From: Populus alba
Taxonomy: Eukaryota > Streptophyta > Magnoliopsida > Malpighiales > Salicaceae
Assembly (NCBI RefSeq): GCF_005239225.2
Contig: NC_133284.1
Coordinates: 7,035,770 to 7,099,769 of the forward strand
Direction: 5' to 3'
Length of the DNA: 64,000 nucleotides
Shown here: piece by piece, positions 42,101 to 64,000 of the stretch
How the letters are laid out: every line of letters begins with the position of its first letter
Numbering within the stretch: the first letter of the stretch is position 1
Translations under genes and position numbers: made by a program
The notes under the pieces: model-generated
Database searches by the model: none
What the model was told of the DNA's origin: nothing
The model's input: the letters and a program-made list of their open reading frames with translations, nothing else

Positions 42101-43669
42101 TGTTGTAACCCATTTTTGGGTCCCCATAAAAAATAAAATAAATAGCCAAAAGAGGTTAGAAAAAATAACAGGAGGCAGAAGCGCTCAGAAAATAGTCAGA
42201 AAATTGGTCAAGGAATTTTAAAAATACAAGGATTGAATTTTTGACAAATATTCTTGAAGGATGAAAACCTTTTTGAGAAGCAAAATTTGAATTTTGAGGA
42301 GAAAAGCCCAAATTTGGATGTTTATGGATTTAATTGGATTTTTATTTGAATTTATAGAGGATTTGATCGCAAGAAAAATTGATTTTTAAGTCAATTTGGG
42401 CTTTAATTAGAAGAAATTTAAGTTCTAGGGCCAAAATATATTTTTTAGGAATTTATTGGGTCAAATCAGGGGTTCAATTGCATAAATATTGAAGTTTAAT
42501 GGCCAATTAGGGGTTTAATTGTGAAAAACCGAAACCAGGGACCAATTTGGGAAAACCGGGTAAATAGAGGGGGCTGTTTTGCTTTGGATCAGGGGCCTAA
42601 TTGAAGAAATTTAAAGTTTATTGATCAATTGAGGGCTTAATTGCATAAATCAGGGGCCAAGGATTAAAGTGAAAAACGCGGCAAACTTGAGGGGTGGAGA
42701 CAAAAATTAAAAAGGATGCAATTGAAAAGAACAAAGATCAATTGAGGACTGATTTGGAAAACATATTCTGGCGCCTTTTTTTTAAAATGAAACGGCGCGT
42801 TTTATCCAAAACGACGCCGTTTCATGTTTTTTTTTTTTTTTTAAAAAAAAAAATAGGGACCGAACGGTGCCGTTTTGAACGACACTGTTCCTCCTTCGTC
42901 TTCCTCTCTGCACTCGTTGCAGGGGAGAAGAAAAATGGTTTTTTCTTCAAAAAAACTTCCCGCCTCTCTCTCCCCTGCATCCTTGCGCCCACCAACACGA
43001 TGCCCCCACGACTTGGACCACCGAAACCAAAGCTACTGGCCGACCGGCCGAAAGCAGGGGAGCGGTGCCTTGCTGTCGTGGGTGGTGGCCGACCAGCCAC
43101 CCACGAAACCCGCTCCCCAGGCGCACTAATGAAGGGCCCATCACACTTTCTCCCCTATAAATAGAGAAGAAAACCGAAGAAAAAAAAACCGAAGGGAGGA
43201 GAGAGAGAGGAGACCGAAGAGAGAGAGAGAGAACCGAACACCGAAGAGAGAAGGAGCCGCAACGCCGCCACCTGGAGCCTCCGTGCACGAGCCACACCAC
43301 CGCCTCCTCGCGCCAGGTAACGCCCTCTCCCCCCTGTATTTGTTTTTTGCAGCGTCTTCCTCCTGCATGCATAATTCTGTTGCATGCAGGAGGACGGGAG
43401 GGGAAAATTAATTCCCCTCCCCGTTTCTTTTTTTTCTCTCCTGGGCCAGACCGGTTCTGGCCCAGCCTTTAGATCTGGTTCGGGTCCGGCCCGGACCAGA
43501 AGATGCACGAGGCTTGTTGGGCCGAGTCCGGCCCAACCCAGTCTGGGCCGAGTTCGGCCCAACCTTTCCTTGTTGGGCTGAGTCCGGCCCGTTTATTTGG
43601 GCCGGCCCAGCCCGAATTCTTTTTATATTATATATTATATATTATAATATGTTATAATATATATGTGTA

Positions 43670-43711
<42 letters not shown>

Positions 43712-44668
43712 TTATAATAATAATAAAATTTTTTGAAAACACCCTAAAAATATTGTTGATTTTTCTGCATATTTTTATCAAAGTGGTTTAATTTTGGTTT
43801 GTATTTTTATATCGTAAAAATACAAAACCAGTGTTATAAATACCCGGTTTTCGTGAAAACATCAAAGATTTTTAGAATAAAAAATGTTTTTGCTTTCAAA
43901 ACAAATTCTAAAAATTCCCTAAAAATGTTGTTGATTTTTCTGCATATTTTTTTATCAAAGTGGATTAATATTGGGTTGTATTTTTATACCGTAAGGATAC
44001 AAGCTCAGTATTAAAATACCCGATTTTCGTCAAAGCATATAAAAAAAAATATTTTCCAAAAAGTTTTTTTTGTTTTAAAATACGGCCTATTCTCTCCAAT
44101 ATATATATATATATATATTATAACATCATATTTTCACACAACAAAGAAAATTTTCAAAACAATATATGTATTAACATGCATTTTGGCTTTAATAACCAGT
44201 TAATTCAAGCCATGAGAACTAGGCCAATATTTCAAAAATTCTAAAAAAAAATCTTTTTGTTTTTTTTTTAGTATTTGGGATTACGAATTTATACGTAAAA
44301 CGTATTCCTAAATATTATTAATAAAGTTTGGTATGGACGTTAGAACGGTTAGGATTTTTACCCGATAAGATAAAGACCTCCTTACCGAGGAGGATTTTTC
44401 TTAAACCATAGACAAACCAACAACTAGGAAAACACAATAACACTTTAGTTTTTTATCAGACAATAAAACAATGCAGCTTACCTTAGGTAGGGCGTATTTG
44501 GGGTGCTAATACCTTCCCTTTACGCAACCAGTCTCCATACCCGATCTCTGAGACCAGTTAGGTTCCTAGTGACCAAAATACTAGGTGGCGACTCCAAAGA
44601 ACAAAAATAAAAAATTTCCGCCAGTCGAACCCGCAAATTGAAATTTGATTTTTTTCTGGGGTGCGACA
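42101..44668 (+). repeat. 5' LTR of Element 1
   Basis: 2568 bp, TGTTGTAACCC...GGGTGCGACA. U3 holds two hairpins with AACGG cores: ATGAAACGGCG (42787-42797) pairing with CGCCGTTTCAT (42815-42825), and GAACGGTG (42862-42869) pairing with CACTGTTC (42883-42890). TATAAATA is at 43156-43163. A purine-rich leader follows, then the splice donor CAG/GTAA (43317), GGCC-rich inverted repeats (43440-43615) and a TA tract. Frames inside the leader (42694-43581) are not genes. Confidence 0.9.
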
Positions 44669-44671
44669 GAA

Positions 44672-44689
44672 TGACGACTCCACTGGGGA
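44672..44689 (+). other. primer-binding site of Element 1 (two changes)
   Basis: TGACGACTCCACTGGGGA starts 3 nt after the LTR. The inner Element 2 has TGGCGACTCCGCTGGGGA at the same place, so this copy differs at two positions. The family sequence looks complementary to the 3' end of a plant tRNA-Arg (from memory, not checked). Confidence 0.65.
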
Positions 44690-45250
44690 CCTTGTAGACT
44701 AAGCTTTGTTTTTGTCTGATTTGTTGGTGTTTTTGTGTGTTTATTGTTAATATGCCTTTCCTTTTATTTGCGTATTTATTTTTTATTTTACGCATATTAT
44801 TCATGCATTGTATACAATTGTCTCATGCATCACTTGCCTAAATTTTGAAAAGCACACACAAGCTTTAAGTTAAGTGGGGAATTAGCGATTTACCCTAAGA
44901 CTATCAGTCAGGGTTTAAATGCGTGAAACACCCAACTCATATCCGAGTGCCTGCGTGGTAATGACGGACATACGTGTCTTAGCTATTCCTTGCAACGCCC
45001 CCATACTGTCTTTACGAAGAACGTCACTGGGTAGATATGAGAACCTTCAAGACTAGATAGAAAAAACTACCCACTCTCACTTGATAAATAGAGCTTGTCC
45101 TTAGGTTATGTATCTTTGTTTGCAATGTTATACTCATCACACATCACTTGTGCATCACATTTTCATCACGCATTTTGTTATCATATGCATTACAGATCGT
45201 GAAACATAGGTCCCACACCCAGAGTCCATCAAACCCGTTTAAGATCAAGA

Positions 45251-46692
45251 ATGGAGAATGAAGAGAGGGCCATCCTAGAATCCCGTTACCAAAGTGAATT
45301 GGAAGCCGTAAGGAATGAAGTGTCTCGAATGACCAATCTACTTGAGCAACTTTTAAGAGCCAAGAACGGGGAGGGAACGTCTACCCAACCACCTATAGGA
45401 GCACAGTCAGTTCATGTCCCGGGGGTATCTCAGAACTTGGGGGCAGATTCAGTGACGGAGCAGCACTTTGCACCTTCCATTCCCATTCAGCCCCCTCAAG
45501 CTCATATCACTGTAGATTTAACAGCAGATGGGCCTTCCAATAATAGGTCCACTGGTTTTATGAACGATGACAAGATATCAGCCTTGGAAAAAGGTTAAGA
45601 GCAGTCGAGGGAAATGACTGGTTTGACCCCATGCGAGCGTCTGAAATATGCTTGGTACCAAACATCACGGTACCAAAAGATTTTAGGATACCTGAGTTTA
45701 TAAAGTACACTGGGTTGGAATGCCCAAACACTCACCTTCGATCTTATTGCAATAAGATGGCTGAGGTGATTCATGACGATAAGTTACTGATCTACTTTTT
45801 CCAAGACAGTCTATCGGGGTCGGCGTTAAGTTGGTACATGAGGCTGGATAATGTCAGGATTAAGAAATGGAAGGATTTAGTTGAGGCTTTCCTTAAGCAA
45901 TACAAGTTCAATTTGGAAATTGCTCCGGATCGAACAAGCCTTATGTCAATGGAAAAGAGAAGCCAAGAATCAGTAAGGGCTTATGCGCAAAGATGGAGGG
46001 ACGAGGCCATGCATGTGCAACCCCCTTTGATAGAAACGGAGATGGTGACTTTGTTCGCCAACACATTCAAGGCACCCTACTATGAGCATTTAATGGGTAG
46101 CTCATCTCAACATTTCTATGATGTTGTACGCATAGCGGAAAGAATAGAGCAAGGGATTAAAGCTGGACGCATAATTGAGCCATTGGAGACAAAGGGTTTT
46201 TTCGGAAGAAAAATGAAAGGTCCCGTTAACAACTTCGAAAGTGGGTTCAATGACAAGATAACGGATTCATATAACCCACAAATACCTACCTCTCATGTGG
46301 CCCACATAAACTTTAACAAACCTTTTTCCCTTAATCGAGCAAATGACCAGTCAAACACCCAAAACACCCACCAAAGACCAAACACAAGATACATTTCAGA
46401 ACAACTACCGCCATTACCCATGCCTCTGAAGGACATATATGCCAAACTACTGAGCATTGGACAAATAGCTCCTATCCCTACATTACCACTACAACCACCA
46501 TTCCCCATCTGGTATAAGCCCGAGTTGACTTGCGAGTACCATGCTGGTATTCCCAGGCATTGTCTTGAAACGTGCTACGGTTTCAAGAACAAGTTGTTGA
46601 AGCTCATCAAGATAGGATGGGTGTCATTTGAAGACACACCCAATACCAATTTAAATCCATTGCCTGGTCATGACAAAAATGATAGGGGATAA
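45251..46692 (+). pseudogene. gag of Element 1, broken by one frameshift
   Basis: The ATG at 45251 opens an N-terminal coiled coil (MENEERAILESRY, then NLLEQLLRAKNGEG). A missing base near 45587-45592 then puts a stop in the frame. The rest (45631-46692, 353 codons in a second frame) carries the retrotransposon gag fold: YFFQDSLSGSALSWYMRL, then W..LVEAFLKQYKFN, then SVRAYAQRWRDEA. It ends with a Cys/His knuckle CEYHAGIPRHCLETC. The frame closes in the same place as in Element 2. A normal leader splice acceptor lies 56 bp upstream (AG at 45194-45195). Function would be capsid formation and RNA packaging, lost unless the frame is bypassed. Confidence 0.85.
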
Positions 46693-47818: not shown

Positions 47819-48245
47819 AAAAAGGAATCGCTAAATGGGATTCCAAGTTGTTGAGATCGACAGAAGGGATCTTGTATTTCAATGGAGGTTGCCAGAAGGG
47901 ACCTCAAAGTTCAGCTTTTGTATAAAAGGAATCACCAGATGGGATTCCAAGTTGTTTGGGATCGCCAGAAGGGGTCTCGTTTTCGATATTCATCAATGGA
48001 GGTCGCCAGAAGGGACCTCAAATTTCAGCTTTGGTATAAAAGGAATCGCCAGATGGGATTCCAAGTTGTTTGGCTAAAGGAGATCGCCAGAAGGGATCTC
48101 ATATTTCGATGAAGGTCGCCAGAAGGGACCTAATATTTCAGCTTTTAATAAAAGGAATCGCCAGATGGGATTCCAAGTTATTTGAGATCGCCAGAAGGGA
48201 TCTCGTACTTCGACATTCATCAAGGAAGGTCGCTAGAAGGGACCT
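47819..48245 (+). repeat. array P1 of Element 1: stem-loop units with three alternating stems
   Basis: Twelve units keep the core GCCAGA(A/T)GG flanked by a short inverted repeat. Three stem types alternate in a fixed cycle: GGAATC with GATTCC, GAGATC with GATCTC, and AGGTC with GACCT. One three-unit cycle is about 115 bp and repeats about four times. Frames through the array (ARRDL-like peptides) are repeatedly closed and shift phase, so they are by-products. Confidence 0.9.
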
Positions 48246-48298
48246 TATATTGAAACCATTTCTTAGAAAAGCATGGAGTTTACTAAGAATTCTTCCCC

Positions 48299-48818
48299 CT
48301 GGGTAGGTCACCCATACAATGAGACCATTATTTTTCCTGGGTAGGTCACCCATACAATGAGACCATCATTTTTTCCCCCTGGGTAGGTCACCCATACAAT
48401 GAGACCATCATTTTTCCTGGGTAGGTCACCCATACAATGAGACCATCATTTTTTCTTGGGTTCGTCACCCATACAATGAGACCATCATTTTTCTTGGGTT
48501 CGTCACCCATACAATGAGACCATCATTTTTCCTGGGTAGGTCACCCATACAATGAGACCATCATTTTTCTTGGGTAGGTCACCCATACAATGAGACCATT
48601 ATTTTTCTGGGTAGGTCACCCATACAATGAGACCTTTATTTTTCTCGGGTAGGTCACCCATACAATGAGACCATCATTTTTTCCTTGGGTAGGTCACCCA
48701 TCACAATGAGACCATATTTTTTCTGGGTAGGTCACCCCTAAGAAAGAGACCATTCTCCATCTTTTTTTTACCTAGGTAGGTCACCCATAAGAATGAGGCC
48801 ATTCTTCCCCCTGGGTAG
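48299..48818 (+). repeat. array P2 of Element 1: ~38-bp hairpin minisatellite, left part
   Basis: About 14 units of GGGTAGGTCACCCATACAAT, then GAGACCATCATTTTTCCT. Each unit contains TGGGT...ACCCA (5-bp stem) and, overlapping it, GGTC...GACC. Some units have TTCG in place of TAGG. The array is interrupted by Element 2 and resumes at 58316. Confidence 0.9.
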
Positions 48819-50509
48819 TGTCGCACCCCAAAAAAATAATCCAATCAATGCGGGTTCGACTGGCGAATTTTTTTATTTTTGGTTTGATTTGGTTCTTTGG
48901 AGTCGCCACCTAGTATTTTGGTCACTAGGAACCCTAACTGGTCTCAGAGATCGGGTACGGAGACTGGTTGCGTAAAGGGAAGGTATTAGCACCCCAAATA
49001 CGCCTTACCTAAGGTAAGCTGCATTGTTTTATTGTCTGATAAAAATAATAATAAAAAAAACTAAGGTGTTATTGTGTTTTCCTAGTTGTTGGTCTGTCTA
49101 TGGTTCAAGAAAAATCCTCCTCGGTAAGGAGATCTTTATCTTATCGGGTAAAAATCCTAATCGTTCTAACGTCCATACCAAAATTTTATTAATAATATTT
49201 AGGAATACGTTTTATGTATAAATTCGTAATCCCAAATACTAAAATAAAACAAAAAAAGATTTTTTAGAATTTTTGAAATATTGGCCTAGTTCTCATGGCT
49301 TGAATAAACTGGTTATTAAAGCCAAAATGCATGTTAATACATATATTGTTTTGAAAATTTTCTTTGTTGTGTGAAAATATGATGTTATAATATTTATATA
49401 TATATTGGAGAGACTAGGCCGTATTTTAAAACAAAAACAATTTTTGGAAAATATTATTTTTTTTATGCTTTGACGAAAATCGAGTATTTTAATACTGAGC
49501 TTGTATCCTTACGGTATAAAAATACAACCCAATATTAATCCGCTTTTTTAAAAAAAAATATGCAGAAAAAATCAACAATATTTTTAGGGAATTTTTAGAA
49601 ATTTTTTGAAAGCAAAAACATTTTTTATTCTGAAAATCTTGGATGTTTTGACGAAAACCGGGTATTTATAACACTAGTTTTGTATCTTTACAGTATAAAA
49701 AATACAAACCAAAATTAAAACATTTTTGACAAAAATATGCAAAAAAATCAACAATATTTTTTTAAGATTTTTCAAAATATTTATTTTTTTTATTATTATA
49801 TTATATATATATATACATATATACACATATATAATATAATATATAATATATAATAAAAAAAATAATTCGGATGTGCCGGCCCAAATATCTGGGCCGGACT
49901 TGGCCTAGAGAGCTGGTATGGGCCAGACCTGGTCTGGCCCGTCAGACACAAGGCCGGGCCAGACTCAGTCTGGCCCAAAAAAAAAATGCTGGGCCAGGAT
50001 CCGCCTGGCCCAGCTACACATCAACAGGGGGGAATTAATTCCCCCCTCCTCCCTGCATGCAGAATGTTCATTCTGCATGCAGGGAAAGCAAATAAAAAAA
50101 CTAACGAAAGGGGGGAGAAGAGGTGACCTGGCGTGGAGGAGGCGGTGCTGCGGTGGCTCTGCGGTGGCGTGGCTTCCCGGGCGGCGCTGCGGCTCCTACT
50201 CTCTTCGGTGTTCGGTTCTCTCTCTCTCTTCGGCCTCCTCTCTCTCTCCTCCCTTCGGTTTTTTTTTCTCCGTCCTCGTGCAGCTTCGGTTTTCTTCTCT
50301 ATTTATAGGGGCCGAACCGTGGGGGACCATCGTTAGTGCGGTGCAACGGCTGGTCGGCCAATGCTAAAGGTGGTGGGGACGAGGAGAGAGAGAGGCGCGG
50401 GAAGATTTTGAAAAAAAATGAAAAAATGGTTTTGCCTCTGTTTCTGTTTCTGTGGGGGAAAGGAAGAAGACGAACAGTGTCGTTCAAAACGACACCGTTC
50501 TGGTCTTTC

Positions 50510-50548
<39 letters not shown>

Positions 50549-51224
50549 CGACGTCGTTTTGGATAAAACGCGCCGTTTCATTTAAATGGGTCAAACTTCA
50601 AATCAGTCCTTCGGACTCGGTCCACGCCCCTCTTGTTGGCCGCCTTTTTCACTTTGGTCCTTGGTCTCTGATTTATGCAATTTAGCCCTCAATTGATTAA
50701 TAAACTTTCAATTTCTTCAATTAGGCCCCTGAACCGAAAAATTTACAGCCCCTCCATTTACGCGTCTCTTCCAATTTGGTTCCTGGTTTCGGATTTTCTT
50801 AATTAAATCCCTAATTGGCCCTTAAACTTCAATATTTATGAAATTAAGCCCCTGATTTGACCCAATAAATTCTTAAAAAATATATTTTTTGGCCCCAGAA
50901 CTTAAATTTCTTCTAATTTAAAGCCCAAATTGACTTAAAAATCAATTTTCTTGCAATCAAATCTTCTATAAATTCAAATAAAAATCCAATTAAATCCATA
51001 AACATCCAAATTTGGGCTTTTCTCCTCAAAAATTCAAATTTTCCTTCTCAATAGGGCTTTCATCCTTCAAGAATATACTGTCAAAAATTTAATCCTTGTA
51101 TTTTTGAATTTCTTGACCAATTTTCTGACTGTTTCCTGAGCGCTTCTGCCTTCTGTTATTTTTTCTAAACTCTTTTGGCTATTTATTTTATTTTTCATGG
51201 GGACCCAAAAAATAGGTTACAACA
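48819..51224 (-). repeat. 3' LTR of Element 2
   Basis: 2406 bp, TGTTGTAACC...GCGACA on the minus strand. It carries a TA run (50514-50544), TATAAATAG near 50300-50308, and the leader donor site changed from CAG/GTAA to CAGGTCACC (near 50126-50134). It differs from the 5' LTR mainly in TA length and short-run indels. Confidence 0.9.
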
Positions 51225-51454
51225 GATGCCCCCTCTTTATAATACTTACGGAGCATGGGTTTTGCGCAGTAAGTGTTATAAAGATAAACCCAAAACGGAA
51301 CTCCTGAAACTGATATGGTCGAAGCTTGATTTATCTGAAACTTTGTCCTTTACAACAATCCTTCTTAGCCCAAAAACTATGATCAAAACTTAGCTATCTC
51401 GAGATCCTTATCCAGCAATCCTCTGAATTCTTACTTTAGTTTGATCAATATGGA

Positions 51455-52190
51455 AATCCATCCGAGATCCCATCTGGTGATCTCCTTTAACCTGGAATCC
51501 CATCTGGTGATTCCTTTACCCAATACAAAAAAATGTGTGTGTGGTCTCATTATGATGGGTGACCTGCCCCGAAAAAATATGGTCTCATTGTGATGGGTGA
51601 CCTACCCAAGAAAAAAAGAGGAATGGTCTCATTGTACGGGTGACCTACCCAGAAAAATAATGGTCTCATTGTATGGGTGACCTACCCCAGAAAAATGATG
51701 GTCTCATTGTATGGGTGACCTACCCAAGGAAAAAAAGAGGAATGGTCTCATTGTATGGGTGACCTACCCAGAAAAATAATGGTCTCATTGTATGGGTGAC
51801 CTACCCCAGAAAAATGATGGTCTCATTGTATGGGTGACCTACCCAAGGAAAAAAAAAGAGTGGTCTCATTCTTTGGGTGACCTACCCAGGGGAAGGAATG
51901 GCCTCATTCTTATGGGTGACCTACCCAGGTAAACAAAAAGATGGAGAATGGTCTCATTGTATGGGTGACCTACCCAGGAAAAATGATGGTCTCATTGTAT
52001 GGGTGACCTACCCAGGAAAAATGATGGTCTCATTGTATGGGTGACCTACCCAAGAAAAATGATGGAGAATGGTCTCATTGTATGGGTGACCTACCCATAA
52101 AAATAATGGTCTCATTGTACGGGTGACCTACCCAAGAAAAATGATGGTCTCATTGTACGGGTGACTAACCCAAGGGGAATAATTCTTAGT
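51455..52190 (-). repeat. array P2 of Element 2 plus distal P1-type pair
   Basis: About 16 hairpin units of ~38 bp read GGTCTCATTGTATGGGTGAC, then CTACCC, on the plus strand. Two P1-type units (GGAATC and GAGATC stems) lie at 51465-51520, between P2 and the polypurine tract, as in Element 1. Confidence 0.88.
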
Positions 52191-52199
52191 AAACTCCAT

Positions 52200-52770
52200 G
52201 CTTTTCTAAGAAATGGTTTCAATATGAGGTCCCTTCTGGCGACCTTCCTTGATGAATGTCGAAGTACGAGACCCCTTCTGGTGATCTCAAATAACTTGGA
52301 ATCCCATCTGGCGATTCCTTTTATTCAAAGCTGAAATATTAGGTCCTTTCTGGCGACCTTCATCGAAATATGAGATCCCTTCTGGCGATCTCCTTTAGCA
52401 AACAACTTGGAATCCCATCTGGCGATTCCTTTTATACCAAAGCTGAAATTTGAGGTCCCTTCTGGCGACCTCCATTGATGAATATCGAAAACGAGACCCC
52501 TTCTGGCGATCTCAAACAACTTGGAATCCCATCTAGTGATTCCTTTTATTCAGAACTGAAATATGAGGTCCCTTCTAGCGACCTCCATCGAAATACGAGA
52601 TCCCTTCTGGCGATCTCAACAACTTGGAATCACATCTGGGGATTCCTTTTATACAAAAGCTGAAATTTGAGGTCCCTTCTAGCGACCTCCATCGAAATAC
52701 GAGATCCCTTCTGTCGATCTCAACAACTTGGAATCCCATTTGGCGATTCTTTTTTACCGAATGCTATCGA
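52200..52770 (-). repeat. array P1 of Element 2
   Basis: About 14-15 stem-loop units with the same three stem types in the same cyclic order as Element 1. Isolated loop changes include GCCAGA to GCTAGA and GCCAAA. Most stems remain paired. Confidence 0.88.
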
Positions 52771-53833
52771 TGTCGTTCTTCCTGCTGGCAGGGTTTGAAA
52801 ACCATTATCTTCTCTTCTTGTTGTTCTAGAATCATCTCAATGATTCTTTCTTCGTCCATAATCTTGTTGGAATGCGCCAAGATCTCCTCCTGTAACGATC
52901 CAAAAAATATATATGCAATGATTTATGATTAGATGCAATGCATGCATTTATACCTGGTTTTGAAACATAGGCCCCATCCTCTTCTTCTAGTTCATGGGAT
53001 TCCCTCTTAACATGAACTTTGCTTTTGAAGTCGTATGTTGGATTCATCTCTCGTGTTGCCTATCATATTCTTGGAGAGGAAGTTTTTGACTTTCTTCAAG
53101 TAGTCCTTTTCTCACAATGTATGACTTGTATTTGCCTCTTTGTCATGCTTTTGTCAAATGCTTTAGCTTGGTTTTCAAATCGTAAAACTTTTCATAAAAC
53201 ATCTCGTCTTGCCCCCTAGTATAGGGGTGCGATATTAGTCTGGGTTTTTATATAGAGAAGCAATTCATTCAGCCGGTGATAAACTTTTTTAGTGAGTGAT
53301 TAGATAATGATTTTTTATTTCAAAATGCCATTGTTATGGTTGATAAACTCTATTCTTTAAAAGACAATTACAAAGTGACCACTTAAACATTTATCCATGC
53401 TATCAGAGATAGGGTTGTACTTTAGGGTTAGCTTTTCTTAAATTTCATATTAAACCATTTTATTGATACTTTATTTGTAACCACTCAAACTTGTTAAAAA
53501 AAAATGCATAAACTCATCATTTATTTAAAGAAAAGGTAAGCTCAAAGACAAACACAAAAATCTGGCTGACAATATGAGCTCTGAATGCTCACTAGAGAAA
53601 ATAAAAGCAAAGACAAAAGCAAATGACAAAAACATGCTAAGGCAAATAAAGTTGTTTTACATTTTGAAAACTACGAGAAGTTCTTGGGTCAACCCGTTCT
53701 GAAACTTCTTCTAGTGTGTGGAAAGTCAACCGAGGCAATGCTTCATCTTCCTTCCCCACTTGCGTTTCCTTGTCTTCTCCTTCGATCTCACCTTCTTCAT
53801 TATTGACGACTCTTGACCAAGGTTTTCCAACCT

Positions 53834-55263
53834 TTATCCCCTATCACTTTTTTCATGACCATGCAATGGATTTGAATTGATATTGGGTGTGTCTTCAAAT
53901 GACACCCATCCTATCTTGATGAGCTTCAACAACTTGTTCTTAAAACCATAGCATGTTTCAAGACAATGCCCGGGAATACCAGCATGGTACTCGCAAGTCA
54001 ACTCGGGCTTATACCAGATGGGGAACGGTGGTTGTAGTGGTAATGTAGCGATAAGAGCTATTTGTCCAATGCTAAGTAGTTTGGCATATATATCCTTCAG
54101 AGGCATGGGTAATGGCGGTAGTTGTTCTGAAATGTATCTTGTGTTTGGTCTTTGGTGGTTGTTTTGGGTGTTTGACTGGCCATTTGCTCGATTAGGGGAA
54201 AAAGGTTTGTTAAAGTTTATGTAGGCCACATGGAAGGTAGGTATTTGTGGGTTATATGAATCTGTTATCTTTTCATTGGACCCACCTTCGAAGTTGTTAA
54301 CGGGACCTTTCATTTTTCTTCCGATAAAACCCTTTGTCTCCAATGGCCCAATTATACGTCCAGCTTTAATCCCTTGCTCGATTCTTTTCGCTATGCGTAC
54401 AACATCATAGAAATGTTGAGATGAGCTACCCATTAAATGCTCATAGTAGGGTGCCTTGAATGTATTGGCGAACAAATTCAACATCTTCGTTTCTATCAAA
54501 GGGGGTTGCACATGCATGGCCTCGTCCCTCCACCTTTGCGCATAAGCCCTTACTGATTCTTGGCTTCTCTTTTCCATTGACATAAGGCTCATTCGATCTG
54601 GAGCAATTTCCAAATTGAACTTGTATTGCTTAAGGAAAGCCTCAACTAAATCCTTCCATTTCTTGATCTTGGCATTATCCAGCCTCATGTACCAACTTAG
54701 TGCCGACCCCGATAGACTATCTTGGAAAAAGTAGATCAGTAACTTATCGTCATGAATCACCTCAGCCATCTTATTGCAATAAGATCGAAGGTGAGTGTTT
54801 GGGCATTCCAACCCAGTGTACTTTGTAAACTCCGGTATCCTAAATTTTTTTGGTACCGTGATGTTTGGTACCAAGCATATTTCAGACGCTCGTATGGGGT
54901 CAAACCAGTCATTTCCCTCGACTGCTCTTAACCTTTCTTCCAAGGCTGTTATCTTGTCATTGTTCATAAATCTAGTGGACCTATTATCAGAAGGCCCGTC
55001 TATAGTGATGTGAGCTTGAGGGGCTGAATGGGAATGGCAGGTGCAAAGTGCTGCCCCGTCGCTGAATCTGCCCCCAAGTTTTGAGATATCCCCGGGACAT
55101 GAACTGACGGCGCTCCTATAGGTGGTTGGGTAGATGTTCCCTCCCCGTTCTTCGCTCTTAAAAGTTGCTCAAGCAGATTGGTCAGTCGAGAAACTTCATT
55201 TTTCATAGATTCCAACTCGGTCTGGTAGTGCGACTCTAAGTGAGCTCTTTCTTCGTTTTCCAT
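53834..55263 (-). pseudogene. gag of Element 2, broken by one frameshift
   Basis: The ATG at 55263 gives MENEERAHLESHY and the coiled coil NLLEQLLRAKNGEG. A one-base loss in a C-run (about 55018-55024) shifts the frame. A nearby 12-bp deletion relative to Element 1 keeps frame by itself. From 54967 to 53834 the gag domain is open for 377 codons: NDWFDPIRASEICLVPN, YFFQDSLSGSALSWYMRL, and the knuckle CEYHAGIPGHCLETC. The break is at a different place from that in Element 1. Confidence 0.85.
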
Positions 55264-55844
55264 TCTTGATCTGGACCGGGTTTGGTGGACTCTGGATTTG
55301 GGACCTATGTTTCACGATCTGGAATGTATATGATAAACAAAAATATGTGATGAAGATGTGATGCATAAGTGATGCGCGATGAGTTTATCCTTATTGATCT
55401 TGATGCAAATAAGATACATAACCTAAGGACAAGCTCTATTTATTAAGTGAGAGTGGGTAGTTTTTTCCTATCTAGTCTTGAAGGTTCTCATATCTGCCCA
55501 GTGATGTTCTTCGTCAAGACAGTATGGGGGCGTTGCAAGGAACAGTTAAGACACATATGTCCACCATTACCAAGCAGGCACTTAGATATGAGTTGGGTGT
55601 TTCACGCATTTAAACCCTGACCAATAGTCTTAGGGTAAATCGCTAATTCCCCACTTAACTTAAGGCTTGTGTGTGCTTTTCAAAATTAAGGCAAGTGATG
55701 CATGAGACAATTGTATATAATGCATGAATAAATGCGCGTAAAAATAAAAACAAATACGCGATTAAAATAAAAGGAAAGACATATAAAAAATAAGCACAGG
55801 CAAACACAAATAAATCAGACAAAAACAAAGCTTAGTCTGCAAGG

Positions 55845-55862
55845 TCCCCAGCGGAGTCGCCA
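55845..55862 (-). other. primer-binding site of Element 2
   Basis: TGGCGACTCCGCTGGGGA on the minus strand, 3 nt inside the 5' LTR. It begins with TGG, as expected for pairing with a tRNA CCA end. It fits what I recall of plant tRNA-Arg(ACG); confirmation needs a tRNA comparison. Confidence 0.7.
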
Positions 55863-55865
55863 TTC

Positions 55866-57588
55866 TGTCGCACCCCAAAAACATAATCCACTCAATGCGG
55901 GTTCGACTGGCGAATTTTTTTATTTTTTGTTTGATTTGGTTCTTTGGAGTCGCCACCTAGTATTTTGGTCACTAGGAACCCTAACTGGTCTCAGAGATCG
56001 GGTACGGAGACTGGTTGCGTAAATGGAAGGTATTAGCACCCCAAATACGCCTTACCTAAGGTAAGCTGCATTGTTTTATTGTCTGATAAAAATAAATAAA
56101 TAAAAACTAAGGTGTTATTGTGTTTTCCTAGTTGTTGGTCTGTCTATTGTTCAAGAAAAATCCTCCTCGGTAAGGAGATATTTATCTTATCGGGTAAAAA
56201 TCCTAATCGTTCTAACGTCCATACCAAAATTTTATTAATAATATTTAGGAATACGTTTTACGTATAAATTCGTAATCCCAAATACTAAAATAAAACAAAA
56301 AAAGATTTTTTTAGAATTTTTGAAATATTGGCCTAGTTCTCATGGCTTGAATAAACTGGTTATTAAAGCCAAAATGCATGTTAATACAAATATTGTTTTT
56401 GAAAATTTTCTTTGTTGTGTAAAAATATGATGTTATAATATTTATATATATATTGGAGAGACTAGGCCGTATTTTAAAACAAAAACAATTTTGGAAAAAT
56501 ATTATTTTTTTTATGCTTTGACGAAAATCGGGTATTTTAATACTGAGCTTGTATCATTACGGTATAAAAATACAACCCAATATTAATCCACTTTTAAAAA
56601 CAAATATGCAGAAAAATAAACAATATTTTTAGGGAATTTTTAGAAATTTTTTGAAAGCAAAAACATTTTTTATTCTGAAAATCTTGGATGTTTTGACGAA
56701 AACCGGGTATTTATAACACTGGTTTTGTATCTTTACAGTATAAAAATACAAACCAAAATTAAAATTTTTTGACAAAAATATGCAGAAAAATCAACAATAT
56801 TTTTTTAAGATTTTTCAAAATATTTTTTTTTTTATTATTATATTATATATATATATATACACATATATAATATAATATATAATATATAATAAAAAAAATA
56901 ATTCGGGCTGGGCCGGCCCAAATATCTGGGCCGGACTTGGCCTAGAGAGCTGGTATGGGCCAGACCTGGTCTGGCACGTCAGACACAAGGCCGGGCCAGA
57001 CTCAGTTTGGCCCAAAAAAAAAAATTGCTGGGCCAGGATCCGCCTCCTCAACAGGGGGGGAATTAATTCCCCCCTCCTCCTCAACAGGGGGGGGAATTAA
57101 TTCCCCCCTCCTCCCTGCATGCAAAATGTTCATTCTGCATGCAGGGAAAGCAAATAAAAAAACTAACGAAAGGAGGGAGAAGAGGTGACCTGGCGTGGAG
57201 GAGGCGGTGTTGCGGTGCTGCGGTGGCTCTCAGCGGTGGCGTGGCTTCCCGGGCGGCGCTGCGGCTCCTTCTCTCTTCGGTGTTCGGTTCTCTCTCTCTC
57301 TTTGGCCTCCTCTCTCTCTCCTCCCTTTGGTTTTTTTTTTCTCCGTCCTCGTGCAGCTTCGGTTTTCTTCTCTATTTATAGGGGCCGAACCGTGGGGGAC
57401 CATCGTTAGTGCGGTGCAACGGCTGGTCGGCCAATGCTAAAGGTGGTGGGGGCGAGGAGAGAGAGAGGCGCGGGAAGATTTTGAAAAAAAACAAAAAAAT
57501 GGTTTTGCCTCTGTTTCTGTTTCTGCGGGGGAAAGGAAGAAGACGAACAGCGTCGTTCAAAATGACACCGTTCTGGTCTTTCCTTTTT

Positions 57589-57642
<54 letters not shown>

Positions 57643-58315
57643 CGGCGTCGTTTTGGATAAAACGCGCCGTTTCATTTAAATGGGTCAAACTTCAAATCAG
57701 TCCTTCGGACTCGGTCCACGCCCCTCTTGTTGGCCGCCTTTTTCACTTTGGTCCTTGGTCTCTGATTTATGCAATTTAGCCCTCAATTGATTAATAAACT
57801 TTCAATTTCTTCAATTAGGCCCCTGAACCGAAAAATTTGCAGCCCCTCCATTTACGCGCCTCTTCCAATTTGGTCCCTGGTTTCGGATTTTCTTAATTAA
57901 ATCCCTAATTGGCCCTTAAACTTCAATATTTATGCAATTAAGCCCCTGATTTGACCCAATAAATTCCTAAAAAATATATTTTGGCCCCAGAACTTAAATT
58001 TCTTCTAATTAAAGCCCAAATTGACTTAAAAATCAATTTTCTTGCAATCAAATCTTCTATAAATTCAAATAAAAATCCAATTAAATCCATAAACATCCAA
58101 ATTTGGGCTTTTCTCCTCAAAAATTCAAATTTTCCTTCTCAATAGGGCTTTCATCCTTCAAGAATATACTGTCAAAAATTTAATCCTTGTATTTTTGAAT
58201 TTCTTGACCAATTTTCTGACTGTTTCCTGAGCGCTTCTGCCTTCTGTTATTTTTTCTAAACTCTTTTGGCTATTTATTTTATTTTTCATGGGGACCCAAA
58301 AAATGGGTTGCAATA
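55866..58315 (-). repeat. 5' LTR of Element 2
   Basis: 2450 bp. The outer terminus reads TATTGC in place of TGTTGT, so the terminal TG is mutated to TA. It has a longer TA run (57594-57638) than the 3' LTR and the same CAGGTCACC change at the leader donor. It stands head to head with the Element 1 3' LTR across a 395-bp gap. Confidence 0.88.
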
Positions 58316-58710
58316 GGTAGGTCACCCAAAGAATGAGACCACTCTTTCCCTTTTCCACTCGGGCAGGTCACCCATCATAATGAGACCACACACATATTTT
58401 TTGTATTGGTTATGGGTAAAGGAATCGCCAGATGGGATTCCAGGTTAAAGGAGATCACCAGATGAGATCTCAGATGGATTTCCATGTTGATCAAACTAAA
58501 GTAAGAATTCAGAGGATCGTTGGATAAGGATCTCGGGATGACTACGTTTTGATCATAGTTTTTGGGCTAAGGAGGATTGTTGTAAAAGACAAAGTTTCAG
58601 ATCATTTAAGCTTCGACCAGATCAGTTTCGGGATTGCCGTATTGGGTTTATCTTTATAACACTTACTACGCAAAACCCATGCTCCGTAAGTATTATAAAG
58701 AGGGGGCATC
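58316..58710 (+). repeat. right part of Element 1 interior: last P2 and P1 units and polypurine tract
   Basis: The sequence resumes with GGTAGGTCACCC (58316), has two P2 units, then a GGAATC stem-loop (58420-58440) and a GAGATC stem-loop (58449-58470). It ends with AAAGAGGGGGCATC just before the 3' LTR. Confidence 0.85.
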
Positions 58711-60163
58711 TGTTGTAACCCATTTTTGGGTCCCCATAAAAAATAAAATAAATAGCCAAAAGAGGTTAGAAAAAATAACAGGAGGCAGAAGCGCTCAGAA
58801 AACAGTCAGAAAATTGGTCAAGGAATTTTAAAAATACAAGGATTGAATTTTTGATAAATATTCTTGAAGGATGAAAGCCTTTTTGAGAAGCAAAATTTGA
58901 ATTTTGAGGAGAAAAGCCCAAATTTGGATGTTTATGGATTTAATTGGATTTTTATTTGAATTTATAGAGGATTTGATCGCAAGAAAAATTGATTTTTAAG
59001 TCAATTTGGGCTTTAATTAGAAGAAATTTAAGTTCTGGGGCCAAAATATATTTTTTAGGAATTTATTGGGTCAAATCAGGGGTTCAATTGCATAAATATT
59101 GAAGTTTAATGGCCAATTAGGGGTTTAATTGTGAAAAACCGAAACCAGGGACCAATTTGGGAAAACCGGGTAAATAGAGGGGGCTGTTTTGCTTTGGATC
59201 AGGGGACTAATTGAAGAAATTTAAAGTTTATTGATCAATTGAGGGCTTAATTGCACAAATCAGGGGCCAAGGATTAAAGTGAAAAACGCGGCAAACTTGA
59301 GGGGTGGAGACAAAAATTAAAAAGGATGCAATTGAAAAGAACAAAGATCAATTGTGGACTGATTTGGAAAACATATTCTGGCGCCTTTTTTTTAAAATGA
59401 AACGGCGCGTTTTATCCAAAACGACGCCGTTTCATGTTTTTTTTAAAAAAAAAAAAAAAAAAAAAACAGGGACCGAACGGTGCCGTTTTGAACGGCATTG
59501 TTCCTCCTTCGTCTTCCTCTCTGCACTCGTTGCAGGGGAGAAGAAAAATGGTTTTTTCTTCAAAAAAAACTTCCCGCCTCTCTCTCCCCTGGCATCCTTG
59601 CGCCCACCAACACGATGCCCCCACGACTTGGACCACCGAAAACAAAGCTATTGGCCGACCGGCCGAAAGCAGGGGAGCGGTGCCTTGCTGTCGTGGGTGG
59701 TGGCCGACCAGCCACCCACGAAACCCGCTCCCCAGGCACACTAATGAAGGCCCATCACACTTTCTCCCCTATAAATAGAGAAGAAAACCGAAGAAAAAAA
59801 AAACCGAAGGGAGGAGAGAGAGAGGAGACCGAAGAGAGAGAGAGAACCGAACACCGAAGAGAGAAGGAGTCGCAGCGCCGCCGACTGGAGCCTCCGTGCA
59901 CGAGCCACACCACCGCCTCCTTGCGCCAGGTAACGCCCTCTCCCCCCTGTATTTGTTTTTTGCAGCGTCTTCCTCCTGCATGCATAATTCTGTTGCATGC
60001 AGGAGGACGGGAGGGGAAAATTAATTCCCTTCCCCGTTTCTTTTTTTTCTCTCCTGGGCCAGACCGGTTCTGGCCCAGCCTTTAGATCTGGGCCGGGTCC
60101 GGCCCGGACCAGAAGATGCACGAGGCCTGTTGGGCCGAGTCCGGCCCAACCTTTCGTTGTTGG
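58711..60163 (+). repeat. 3' LTR of Element 1, truncated
   Basis: Matches the first ~1480 bp of the 5' LTR, with differences of roughly 1-2% by eye plus run-length changes and the loss of one GGCC-rich repeat near 60150. It keeps both U3 hairpins, TATAAATA (59771-59778) and the donor CAG/GTAA (59930). The break after 'ttgttgg' removes the R/U5 end. Frames at 59304-60121 are leader by-products. Confidence 0.88.
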
Positions 60164-60493
60164 ACTAAATTATAAAAACAATTGTGAAAAAAAAAAGAAT
60201 AAACACCCTTACCCCATTACTCTTGAATCATGTGTTTTTAAATGTATGAATAATGGTATGTAGTGAACTTGTTGCTCATAACTCATGAAATGCATCTTTG
60301 CAAAGAATAAACCATCACACTATACGAGGTCAAAGTTTATTGATCATAGCTGCTTGCGCTTGAAATGAGGAAAGGCCATCTTTGTTATTCCTTTCACGTT
60401 CTAAAATAAGTACATCCCTTGCAAACCCTTTTGAGCCTGAATAATTTTTCTTTCATAAAAAAAAAATCCCGACTAAGATCACACCCTACACTG

Positions 60494-60715
60494 GGGGCAA
60501 GTGAAATTTCAATGATCAAGAAGGATGATAAAGCCGTGAGAAAGCCAAAAGGCAAAAGAGCCCAAGAAACTCAAATGCTAGGGATTATGCCCACATCACA
60601 AAAAAAGGGGCAAGTGAAATTTCAATGATCAAGAAAGAGGATAAAGCCGTGAGAAAGCCAAAAGGAAAAAGAGCCCAAGAAACTCAAATGCTAGGGGGCA
60701 TGCCTAAATCACAAG
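60494..60715. repeat. tandem duplication of ~110 bp in Element 3
   Basis: Two copies start GGGGCAAGTGAAATTTCAAT and contain 'gataaagccgtgagaaagcc' and 'caaatgctaggg'. They are about 95% alike by eye. Confidence 0.8.
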
Positions 60716-62049
60716 AAAAAGTGATAACCAAGATAAAGTGAGTATGCTCTAGCAAAGCAATGAAAAAGGAAAAAAGAGGCAAATCAAAGAAGAGTGGCAA
60801 AAGAACTATGAATGGCGTCAAGAGTCAAACTATTGATAGTGATCTTTAGTCTTTGGAACCCTGAAACACTCTTTGAGCCTTATAAATCCTTTTCTTTCAT
60901 AGCCAAAAACCACAGCCTACGTTACGTGCCTGTAGAAGTCCTTTCTAATCAAGCAAGCAAGCAATCTAGAACAATAAACAATGCTCTCAAAATGCAAAGA
61001 TACTTTTTCATAAGATTCATGACATCAAGAATAAACTACTCATTATTATTCATGCTGATAAAAATAAATGTTAAAAAAGAGACAAGTTTTTCTCTTACAA
61101 AACCTCGAGCTTTTTCTCGAGCCCTTCACTTCGAAACGAAAGGTCATCTCATGACATATTTTCACCAAAGACCTCATTACCAAACACAAGAGCAAATAAT
61201 CTCTTTTCCAAGAAAGAAAATAACCAAGGAGTTGCAAGATTTCAAAAGCAAATTGTTTTAGACTCACATCGAAATAAATTTTGTTTTCAAAATGCAAGAT
61301 CAAGATTTCAAGATTCATTCTAGACTCGTATTCCTTCACCAAATGAGAGAATGACCTCTTAAAATCATTATTCATCTAAGTCAGTGACATAGCACACTTG
61401 GGGGCAATGACCAGTACAAGGGGACAACATTGTGTTTAAGGAAAATCTATCATCCCTTACAACAAGACAAGGGGGCATTTTGCTTTACAAAAGACAGCTC
61501 GATCCTTTCAGCAAGTGATACCGAATGTTTTTTAGCAGTGAGACGAGGGGTAATGAATAATCCTCTCAAATTATTTGACGAATCAGAAAATCTCTAGCAA
61601 GCAAGTGGGTCACGATGGGCACCACAAATGCTGAGTTGTGCAAACAAATTTGGAAATAGACTTACATGGGCCAACTCGAGTGGGTTAGAAAGCTAAACGA
61701 CAAAGATGATTCAAATCAGTTAGCAAGATCTCACCAATCAATCAACAAGAAGACTATGAAGAAATGGGGGCCTATATTTCAAATCAGGTAAAGATGCATG
61801 CATATCATTTAACTTTGAGACATTGGACAATGAGTTTTGCAAATTTCATATGAGAAAATTCCAACGAAATCCATCAAGTGGAAGGCCAACTTGAAATGGC
61901 CAAAGATCAAAATTGTTGTTGAAAAATTTTTCATTTTTGAGAATTTTTCAACCTGGGCAGGCCGCCCATGAGAATTAGGCCACCAGAAAAATCTCTGTAT
62001 TTTTTCACCACTTTTCAACCTCAACCATCATAGGTAGTGCATTTCCTAT

Positions 62050-63013
62050 CCTACCTCCATTCGAGCGCGCCTTCGAGCCCTCGTCTGAGTTCTTTTCGAG
62101 CGTGCCTTCGAGCCCTCGACCATCAAAGGTAGTGCATTTTCTATCCTACCTCCATTCGAGCGCGCCTTTGAGCCCTCGTCTTACATTCGAGCGCGCCTTC
62201 GAGCCCTCATCTTATTTCTTTTCGAGCGCGCCTTCGAGCCCTCGACCATCAAAGGTAGTGCATTTTCTATCCTACCTCCATTCGAGCGCGCCTTCGAGCC
62301 CTCGTCTTACATTCGAGCGCGCCTTCGAGCCCTCGTCTTATTTATTTTCGAGCGCGCCTTCGAGCCCTCGTCTTATTTATTTTCGAGCGCGCCTTCGAGC
62401 CCTCGTCTTATTTATTTTCGAGCGCGCCTTCGAGCCCTCGACCATCAAAGGTAGTGCATTTTCTATCCTACCTACATTCGAGCGCGCCTTTGAGCCCTTG
62501 TCTTATCTCCATTCGAGCGCGCCTTCGAGCCCTCGTCTTATTTCTTTTCGAGCGCGCCTTCGAGCCCTCGACCATCATAGGTAGTGCATTTCCTATCCTA
62601 CCTCCATTCGAGCGCGCCTTCGAGCCCTCGTCTTATTTCTTTTCGAGCGCGCCTTCGAGCCCTCGTCTGAGTTCTTTTCGAGCGTGCCTTCAAGCCCTCG
62701 ACCATCAAAGGTAGTGCATTTTCTATCCTACCTCCATTCGAGCGCGCCTTCGAGCCCTCGTCTTACATTCGAGCGCGCCTTCGAGCCCTCGACCACCTCA
62801 GGTAGTGCATTTTCTATCCTACCTCCATTCAAGCGCGCCTTCGAGCCCTCGTCTTACATTCGAGCGCGCCTTCGAGCCCTTGTCTTATTTTCGAGCGCGC
62901 CTTCGAGCCCTCAACCATCAAAGGTAGTGCATTTTATATCCTACCTCCATTTGAGCGCGCCTTCGAGCCCTCGTCTTATCTCTATTTGAGCGCGCCTTCG
63001 AGCCCTCGTCTTA
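62050..63013 (+). repeat. 31-bp GC-rich minisatellite of Element 3
   Basis: More than 25 units of ATTCGAGCGCGCCTTCGAGC plus CCTCGTCTTA, with spacer variants (tttcttttcg, tttattttcg). A longer interrupter with 'accatcaaaggtagtgcatt' recurs about seven times and gives a higher-order period. Each unit has CGAGCCCTCG (a 4-bp hairpin) and GCGCGC. Because 31 is not a multiple of three, all frames stay open over long stretches; the long SSAPSSPR-type frames are by-products. Confidence 0.9.
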
Positions 63014-63037
63014 TAAAAAAAAAAACTTGTATTTTTC

Positions 63038-63805
63038 CACTGGGCAGGTAACCCATTACAATGTGACCAACTGGGCAGGTAACCCATTACAATATACCAA
63101 CTGGGCAGGTAACCCATTACAATGTGACCATCTGGGCAGGTAACCCATTACAATGTGACCAACTGGGCTGGTAACCCATTACAATGTGACCAACTGGGCA
63201 GGTAACCCATTGCAATGTGACCATCTGGGCAGGTAACCCATTACAATATACCAACTGGGCAGGTAACCCATTACAATGTGACCAACTGGGCAGGTAACCC
63301 ATTAAAATATACCAACTGGGCAGGTAACCCATTACAATGTGACCAACTGGGCTGGTAACCCATTACAATGTGACCAACTAGGCAGGTAACCCATTACAAT
63401 GTGACCAACTGGGCAGGTAACCCATTACAATGTGACCAACTGGGCCGGTAACCCATTACAATATGACCATTTGGGCAGGTAACTCATTACAATGTGACCA
63501 TTTGGGCCGGTAACCCATTACAACATACCATCCTATACTGGGCAGGTAACCCATTACAATGTGACCATTTGGGTCGGTAACCCATTACAACATATCATCC
63601 TATACTGGGCAGGTAACCCATTACAATGTGACCCTTTAGGCCGGTAACCCATTACAACATACCATCATATACTGGGCAGGTAACCCATTACAATGTGACC
63701 ATTTGGGTCGATAACCCATTACAACATACCATCATATACTGGGCAGGTAACCCATTACAATGTGACCATTTGGGCCGGTAACCCATTACAACATACCATC
63801 ACAAA
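63038..63805 (+). repeat. ~31-bp GGGCAGGTAACCC minisatellite of Element 3
   Basis: About 24 units of ACTGGGCAGGTAACCCATTA followed by CAATGTGACCA. From about 63480 the units alternate in pairs (GGGCAGG then GGGCCGG or GGGTCGG), a dimeric higher-order form. Looser relatives follow at 63838-63925. Confidence 0.9.
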
Positions 63806-64000
63806 AAAAGAGAAAAAAATCATCGTATTTTTCAATCATTGGGCAGGTCGCTTTGAACAATTAGACCACTCGTGAAATTCTTCGCGTTTCTTTTATCATT
63901 GAGCAGGTTCCCTACAACAATTTGATCCATTTCAAAAAAAAAAAAAGGGTCGTCTCCCAAATGATTTGTTTTTTGATTTCTACATCAATCTACTGTTTTC

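Follow-up and report, generated by a model that had tools for sequence, protein, structure and literature searches.

In a 64,000-nucleotide stretch of the Populus alba genome (hereafter the window, to which all coordinates refer), we characterized P1, an array of short hairpins carried near the 3' end by two related gag-only retroelements with long terminal repeats (LTRs): E1 on the forward strand and E2 on the reverse strand, nested inside E1. The P1 stems occur in three types, and the evidence supports that their pairing exceeds chance on a null model that takes the relatedness of the repeat units into account. As a tentative explanation, favoured here with limited confidence, the stems may have been kept paired by selection on the RNA of the elements, in which they would likely offer Gag, or an RNA-binding protein of the host, many sites to bind in packaging or export. 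The interval 47819..52770, given for the array in the initial annotation, runs across the two oppositely oriented elements and also takes in an LTR of the nested one.

P1 is made up of 31 hairpins of 21 nt each, spaced at 29-43 nt, including 14 in E1 (12 at 47824-48246 and two at 58421-58471) and 17 in E2 (15 at 52226-52750 and two at 51464-51514). Stem A pairs GGAATC with GATTCC, stem B pairs GAGATC with GATCTC, and stem C pairs GAGGTC or AAGGTC with GACCTC, GACCTA or GACCTT. The order of types is fixed, with ABC repeated four times and followed by a distal AB in E1, and five times followed by a distal AB in E2; both elements have retained the distal A and B hairpins, approximately 220 bp upstream of the polypurine tract. 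A degenerate 21-mer describing the unit has 11 exact matches in the window, against 0.00 expected. The three paired stem types, their fixed order and the distal copies (58421-58471 and 51464-51514), all noted initially, are real, and the G-T variants are present at 47958-47978 and 52493-52513. The stems had also been said always to pair, which holds for the inner five pairs (155 of 155 cells) and fails four times at the outermost pair, giving 182 paired cells out of 186 for six pairs in 31 units. The loop GCCAGA(A/T)GG had been described as nearly invariant, but it is exact in only 16 of the 31 units, and within a type the loop changes more than the inner stem.

Three inner pairs differ on both sides between the types, and two of these change jointly between A and B. 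By eye, the A-B difference admits two readings, a pair of adjacent mirrored transitions or a single mirrored insertion of 1 bp (AAAGGA-ATC versus AAAGGAGATC), and the B-C difference is one mirrored transition. Because A and B are separated by a joint step and B and C by a single one, the three types represent only two or three paired events. Shuffle tests, which ignore the relatedness of units, were carried out on 21 distinct units and eight pairs: 94.6% of 168 cells were paired, a level reached by none of 500 shuffles and by no slid comparison (maximum 64.3%), and the numbers of two-sided cells and the covariation score were likewise above all 500 shuffles.

A stricter null was then built on a hand-made tree of types, trimer lineages and E1/E2 pairs, in which the changes of each column were re-thrown randomly on the branches; it replaced a first tree-aware run that had used a rooted tree and a looser null. 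For the inner five pairs, 4, 22 and 109 of 4000 runs reached the observed pairing together with two-sided change when the branches between types were weighted 1x, 3x and 10x, respectively, and for six pairs the corresponding counts were 0, 6 and 28. As a test of covariation against a phylogeny-aware null, this range of 4 to 109 runs of 4000 for the inner pairs, depending on the weighting, can only be suggestive, since no more than two or three paired events underlie it and the tree was made by hand.

Further evidence came from the timing of changes. E1 and E2 have four trimer lineages in common and E2 has one more; the lineages were matched by eye on a star tree, and gapped linker columns and the distal linker were excluded. 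Changes between trimer lineages were regarded as old, and those between the E1 and E2 copies of one lineage as recent. Old changes were found at 1 of 170 inner-stem positions, compared with 8 of 153 in the loop (p = 0.015) and 11 of 174 in the linker (p = 0.006; both values uncorrected for several tests). Recent changes numbered 3 of 140 in the stem, 8 of 126 in the loop (p = 0.12) and 3 of 135 in the linker (p = 1.0). When stem was compared with loop and linker combined, the difference was significant for old changes (p = 0.0032) and not for recent ones (p = 0.40). This pattern, based on small numbers, is what selection in active elements followed by relaxation in dead copies would be expected to produce. 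Since old changes avoid the inner stem and the combination of pairing and two-sided change is rare on the tree-aware null, past selection on pairing appears to be favoured. The similarity of the E1 and E2 arrays was also considered as proof of constraint and was dropped, because the array is about as alike as most of the internal region and therefore shows no special conservation.

Relatives of the array were found by translating one array stretch, searching a protein collection with it and then searching with one of its matches. This yielded 81 translated relatives at E <= 1, in which all three sense frames are represented; three of them are named, all Populus alba. Whether the two arms match can be read in one frame from the codons for stem positions 3-5 and 18-20; there, the matched residue pairs were (G,P) in 63, (N,F) in 53 and (D,S) in 51 distinct contexts. 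Non-matched combinations of arms occupied 12 contexts in six combinations, namely (G,S) in four, (G,L) in three, (D,P) in two and (G,F), (D,F) and (D,Y) in one each, the rows (N,I), (L,N) and (F,D) having been judged by eye to be non-hairpins. A parse of all frames, in which every unit was allotted to whichever of the three types it resembled most and which cannot itself reveal a fourth, recovered 361 units from distinct contexts, each differing from its type by two residues at most; at least 78 of the 81 proteins contributed. Of these units, 344 lay within one residue of their type (264 exact and 80 with one difference), and by eye a few of the 361 do not form hairpins. The 17 units with two differences, as well as 10 one-difference units that a single base could not explain, were not counted as events. 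Of 328 steps between neighbouring units, 308 followed the order A>B>C>A; the count covers 450 units, including repeats of one context, and excludes steps of more than 60 nt or next to a mixed unit. Such mixed units, with the exact left arm of one type and the right arm of another, number 13, of which 7 could also be read as single-base changes. These data suggest that copying throughout the family proceeds by whole trimers; out-of-register exchange is rare but present.

The existence of these stop-free translated stretches in protein databases raises the question of whether the array encodes a repetitive peptide, with pairing as a by-product of codon constraint. This is very improbable: the 29-43 nt spacing shifts the frame from unit to unit, relatives use differing frames within one stretch, and TAG occurs in the loop of 4 of the 31 units. 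A coding explanation was rejected on the frame shifts.

At the level of predicted structure, one isolated unit of each type folds into a 6-bp stem followed by a bulged G, the pairs CC/GG and a tetraloop (AGAA or AGAU); the energies range from -8.8 to -11.1 kcal/mol, with z between -2.5 and -3.5. Cognate arms are predicted to pair at -6.0 to -8.3 kcal/mol, whereas five of six non-cognate combinations give only -0.3 to -1.9 kcal/mol.

On the other side, a number of observations weigh against stems maintained in RNA. In the shuffle tests, 240 of 500 shuffles had at least as many pairs with changes on both sides (4 observed), and 499 of 500 had at least as many further pair types (9 observed). The direct interaction between old and recent changes is weak (p = 0.083 versus linker and 0.28 versus loop and linker), and in the relatives the inner stem did not differ significantly from the loop (13 of 1677 versus 24 of 1935 changed; p = 0.19). 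An Rfam scan of 42000-64000 returned 19 matches at E <= 1, none of which reached its own gathering score. By the same modelling as above, the left arm of C and the right arm of B would pair at -5.7 kcal/mol; orthogonality of the three stems is only partly true. Folding also gave no advantage to the sense strand, either in mean stem probability (0.61-0.78 for sense versus 0.68-0.87 for antisense) or in the z value of the E1 array (-4.65 versus -5.46). When the sense strand is read as RNA, pairing survives a G-U change but not its mirror, an A-C change. Among relatives, 9 wobble and 4 mismatch transitions were counted (873 versus 804 visible opportunities; one-sided p = 0.17), or 12 and 4 (p = 0.054) if ties are assigned to the one-base reading, three units tied between types being uncounted in the former and counted as wobbles in the latter. 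Possible left-right joins, recognized by eye, account for 5 of the 12 wobbles and 2 of the 4 mismatches, and their exclusion leaves 7:2; three mismatch transversions are also present among the relatives. In addition, many changes fall at CpG or CHG positions by eye. A bias towards pairing in sense RNA, rather than in antisense RNA or DNA, is unproven from these sequences. Of the initial proposal that pairing has been maintained, the part that stands is pairing beyond chance on the tree-aware null and the rarity of old inner-stem substitutions; sense RNA as the molecule concerned is not established, given the lack of a fold advantage and the non-significant wobble excess. The initially suggested roles in packaging, dimerization or host-protein binding are still conjectural.

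A further point on the same side is that no clear fourth stem type was found in the 81 relatives, in scans of all frames with the loop core only and any stem residues; the search requires shared words, so distant families with other stems would be missed. It follows that independent covariation events are few. Since the relatives repeat the same three arm pairs and have no clear fourth, the three types appear to have arisen once and to have been copied since as an ABC trimer. This is largely the contrary case that the initial annotation had set out, a single origin followed by copying, except that the types look related to each other and not like unrelated palindromes.

Such an origin is compatible with an almost equally plausible explanation, in which P1 is a functionless 3' minisatellite whose trimer was made by copying and whose palindromes were made and kept by template switching during reverse transcription or replication. 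This process is missing from the earlier argument that three covarying stems could not come from simple copying: template switching has been described as capable of generating and preserving hairpin stems, even with compensatory changes of several bases (PMC8794818), and the 3' repeats of Tat/Ogre elements have been hypothesized to originate via illegitimate recombination or strand transfer (PMC7004042). The copying of three types in register across relatives, the presence of mixed-arm units and the possibility of reading A-B as one mirrored insertion all agree with it. However, template switching should also produce mirrored changes within types, and the only one found is at the outermost pair (G-C to A-T at 48226-48246); the inner five pairs have none in any of the 31 units. 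Moreover, the inner stem had approximately ten times fewer old changes than the linker (1 of 170 versus 11 of 174).

It is also conceivable, but quite improbable, that the palindromes act in DNA, as sites for DNA-binding proteins, as cruciforms or as favoured landing sites for nested insertions. Both strands fold about equally well, and E2 itself was inserted in a palindrome of the second array of E1, P2, with the target site duplication (TSD) GGTAG. Nested elements are reported to favour the 3' untranslated regions of other elements and insertions to prefer palindromes weakly, although, in the same study, the palindrome effect is small and absent for nested elements taken alone (PMC6911290). 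Besides, inner pairs in the window depart from the type consensus five times, each time as G-T on the sense strand, although one departure is at a CpG and three are the same substitution.

Considering these points together, we rank a maintained hairpin module first, by a narrow margin, and the neutral, template-switch-shaped array second. Under the favoured explanation, an ancestral hairpin would have diverged into three stems via two or three mirrored changes, and the ABC trimer would then have been multiplied by copying, through unequal exchange or strand transfer during reverse transcription. Similar loops on rotating, different stems might allow many sites to form their local fold, with an upstream arm rarely mispairing with the unit that follows. 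The hairpins would likely provide Gag, or an RNA-binding protein of the host, with multiple binding sites in packaging or export. Engineered MS2 tags are arrays of coat-protein hairpins with one loop on varied stems. A bolder and rather unlikely version is that P1 is a natural counterpart of such tags, in which a multivalent set of hairpins, alike in the loop but with three stems that are mostly orthogonal and alternate in rotation, would bind Gag, so that the element's own RNA, and not that of its helper, fills the particle; an array of H-type pseudoknots (P2) would follow it. MS2 tags, in contrast to P1, are engineered, and no binding protein is known for P1.

The two elements were delineated by self-comparison of the window (self-BLAST), edge sequences and boundary checks, and their features are listed in Table 1.

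Table 1. Features of the nested elements E1 and E2 in the window (PBS, primer-binding site).
Feature	Position	Strand	Remarks
E1 5' LTR	42101..44668	+	TGTTGTAACC...GGGGTGCGACA; self-BLAST and edge sequences
E1 PBS-like site	44669..44691	+	GAATGACGACTCCACTGGGGACC; boundary check
E1 gag	45203..46692	+	two frames (45203-45598, 45571-46692); PF03732 in 45631-46692
E1 P1 array	47819..48255	+	12 hairpins, ABC x4
E1 P2 array	48298..48818	+	interrupted by E2; 38-bp unit TGGGT-A-GGTC-ACCCA-TACAATGA-GACC
TSD, left copy	48814..48818	+	GGTAG
E2	48819..58315	-	gag-only LTR element in the P2 array of E1
E2 3' LTR	48819..51224	-	
E2 polypurine tract	51225..51244	-	TATTATAAAGAGGGGGCATC
E2 distal hairpins	51464..51514	-	A and B
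E2 P2 array	51543..52172	-	16 units
E2 P1 array	52226..52750	-	15 hairpins, ABC x5
E2 gag	53834..55311	-	two frames (55000-55311, 53834-55168); PF03732 in 53834-54967
E2 PBS-like site	55843..55865	-	GAATGGCGACTCCGCTGGGGACC
E2 5' LTR	55866..58315	-	
TSD, right copy	58316..58320	+	GGTAG
E1 final two P2-like units	58316..58387	+	past the E2 insertion
E1 distal hairpins	58421..58471	+	A and B
E1 polypurine tract	58691..58710	+	
E1 3' LTR	58711..60151	+	truncated

Both elements have the structure expected of LTR retrotransposons: E2 possesses LTRs, TSD, PBS-like site and polypurine tract, and E1 possesses LTRs (the 3' one truncated), PBS-like site and polypurine tract. LTR-LTR substitutions amount to 2.1% in E1 (30 of 1434 aligned bases, 5' LTR versus truncated 3' LTR) and 2.3% in E2 (56 of 2391). 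The target site of E2, flanked by GGTAG on both sides, is within a palindrome unit of the P2 array of a close relative of itself, and the insertion thus represents self-nesting into the 3' array of such a relative. A gag domain (PF03732) and no pol open reading frame (ORF) were found in either element. In both, gag and P1 are separated by approximately 1.1 kb, in which the longest sense ORF (83 aa) is too short for an intact pol; the Pfam scan covered the main gag ORFs of E1 and E2, and pol remnants elsewhere are possible. By eye, the N-terminal part of both gags is affected by a frame change that splits the gene. E1 and E2 are TR-GAG-like elements by the definition of PMC6022998. Among the best 120 of 317 gag relatives, every one bearing a species name is from Populus. 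No DNA relatives were confirmed in viral contigs (searched by pattern and by gag) or in genome contigs (by gag). A diverged LTR-like stretch was also observed at approximately 16339-18930, with 72-79% identity to the E1 and E2 LTRs and no recognizable array or PBS adjoining it in the sequence read.

Like Tat/Ogre elements, both E1 and E2 carry tandem repeats in the space that separates their last gene from the 3' LTR, and the PBS-like site of E1 putatively matches the 3' end of tRNA-Arg. The array position and this presumed PBS identity suggest a link to the Ogre/Tat lineage, a lineage normally assigned by reverse transcriptase, RNase H and integrase (RT/RH/INT) phylogeny. tRNA-Arg is used by two Ogre families of Medicago (PMC2533021). 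In Tat-lineage elements, tandem repeats commonly precede the 3' LTR; they are described as hypervariable and can seed satellites (PMC7004042).

The P2 array comprises 57 units, including 15 in E1, 16 in E2 and 26 in a third, related element, E3. Its unit can be written as an H-type pseudoknot, which is a candidate structure only: 87.4% of 246 cells in 28 distinct rows were paired, compared with a maximum of 49.2% when slid, and 124 of 500 shuffles were as high (66 of 500 for the covariation score). Three single P2-type units were folded and none was unusually stable. Some units are changed on both sides, such as a single P2-like unit at 61954-61981, in which this holds for both helices (TGGGC/GCCCA and GGCC/GGCC). 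E3 (60462-64000) has a 41-bp stretch in common with E1 (60462-60501, 90%), and the part of it within the window had no P1 unit in the hairpin scan. It carries a 35-bp array of CGAG...CTCG type (62058-63015), in which an AGGTAG...CTACCT hairpin (62123-62158, z -3.15) is repeated, and a 31-bp P2-like array (63039-63800).

Compared with known systems, the position and family-specificity of P1 are of a known kind, and the unusual part is the hairpin trimer. Tat/Ogre/Retand elements (GmOgre/Gmr9 minisatellites, PMC3305785; Retand, PMC11963269; Lathyrus Ogre, PMC7004042) have likewise been described to carry family-specific tandem arrays downstream of their last gene and ahead of the 3' LTR, with several repeat kinds per element; unlike those, E1 and E2 are without intact pol and their P1 unit is a hairpin trimer with three alternating stems. 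The words hairpin, stem and secondary structure do not occur in the main text of the Retand survey (PMC11963269), nor hairpin in the GmOgre/Gmr9 paper (PMC3305785), as far as these were accessible. TR-GAG elements (PMC6022998) similarly combine LTRs and a gag domain without pol, and a P1-like array is absent from the portion of the definition available. Structured RNA in the transcript of an LTR element is also known from the RTE and MusD MTE export elements (PMC12786077) and from the dimerization and packaging motifs of Ty1 (PMC5454406). In the accessible portions, none of these is described as an array of a dozen copied hairpins, and any such activity of P1 is hypothetical. Hairpins made by template switching (PMC8794818) share with P1 the mirrored stem changes without seen intermediates, but they concern RNA genes and not a tandem trimer in a retroelement. 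No report of a hairpin trimer of the P1 kind was found in open-licence PubMed Central papers, which were surveyed mostly by listings.

If the stems are not maintained, P1 would be a compact case of copying and template switching that mimic RNA covariation, and a warning for covariation tests on tandem repeats. If they are maintained, the 3' repeat region of these elements would gain a testable role in RNA, and gag-only elements would gain a way to win packaging.

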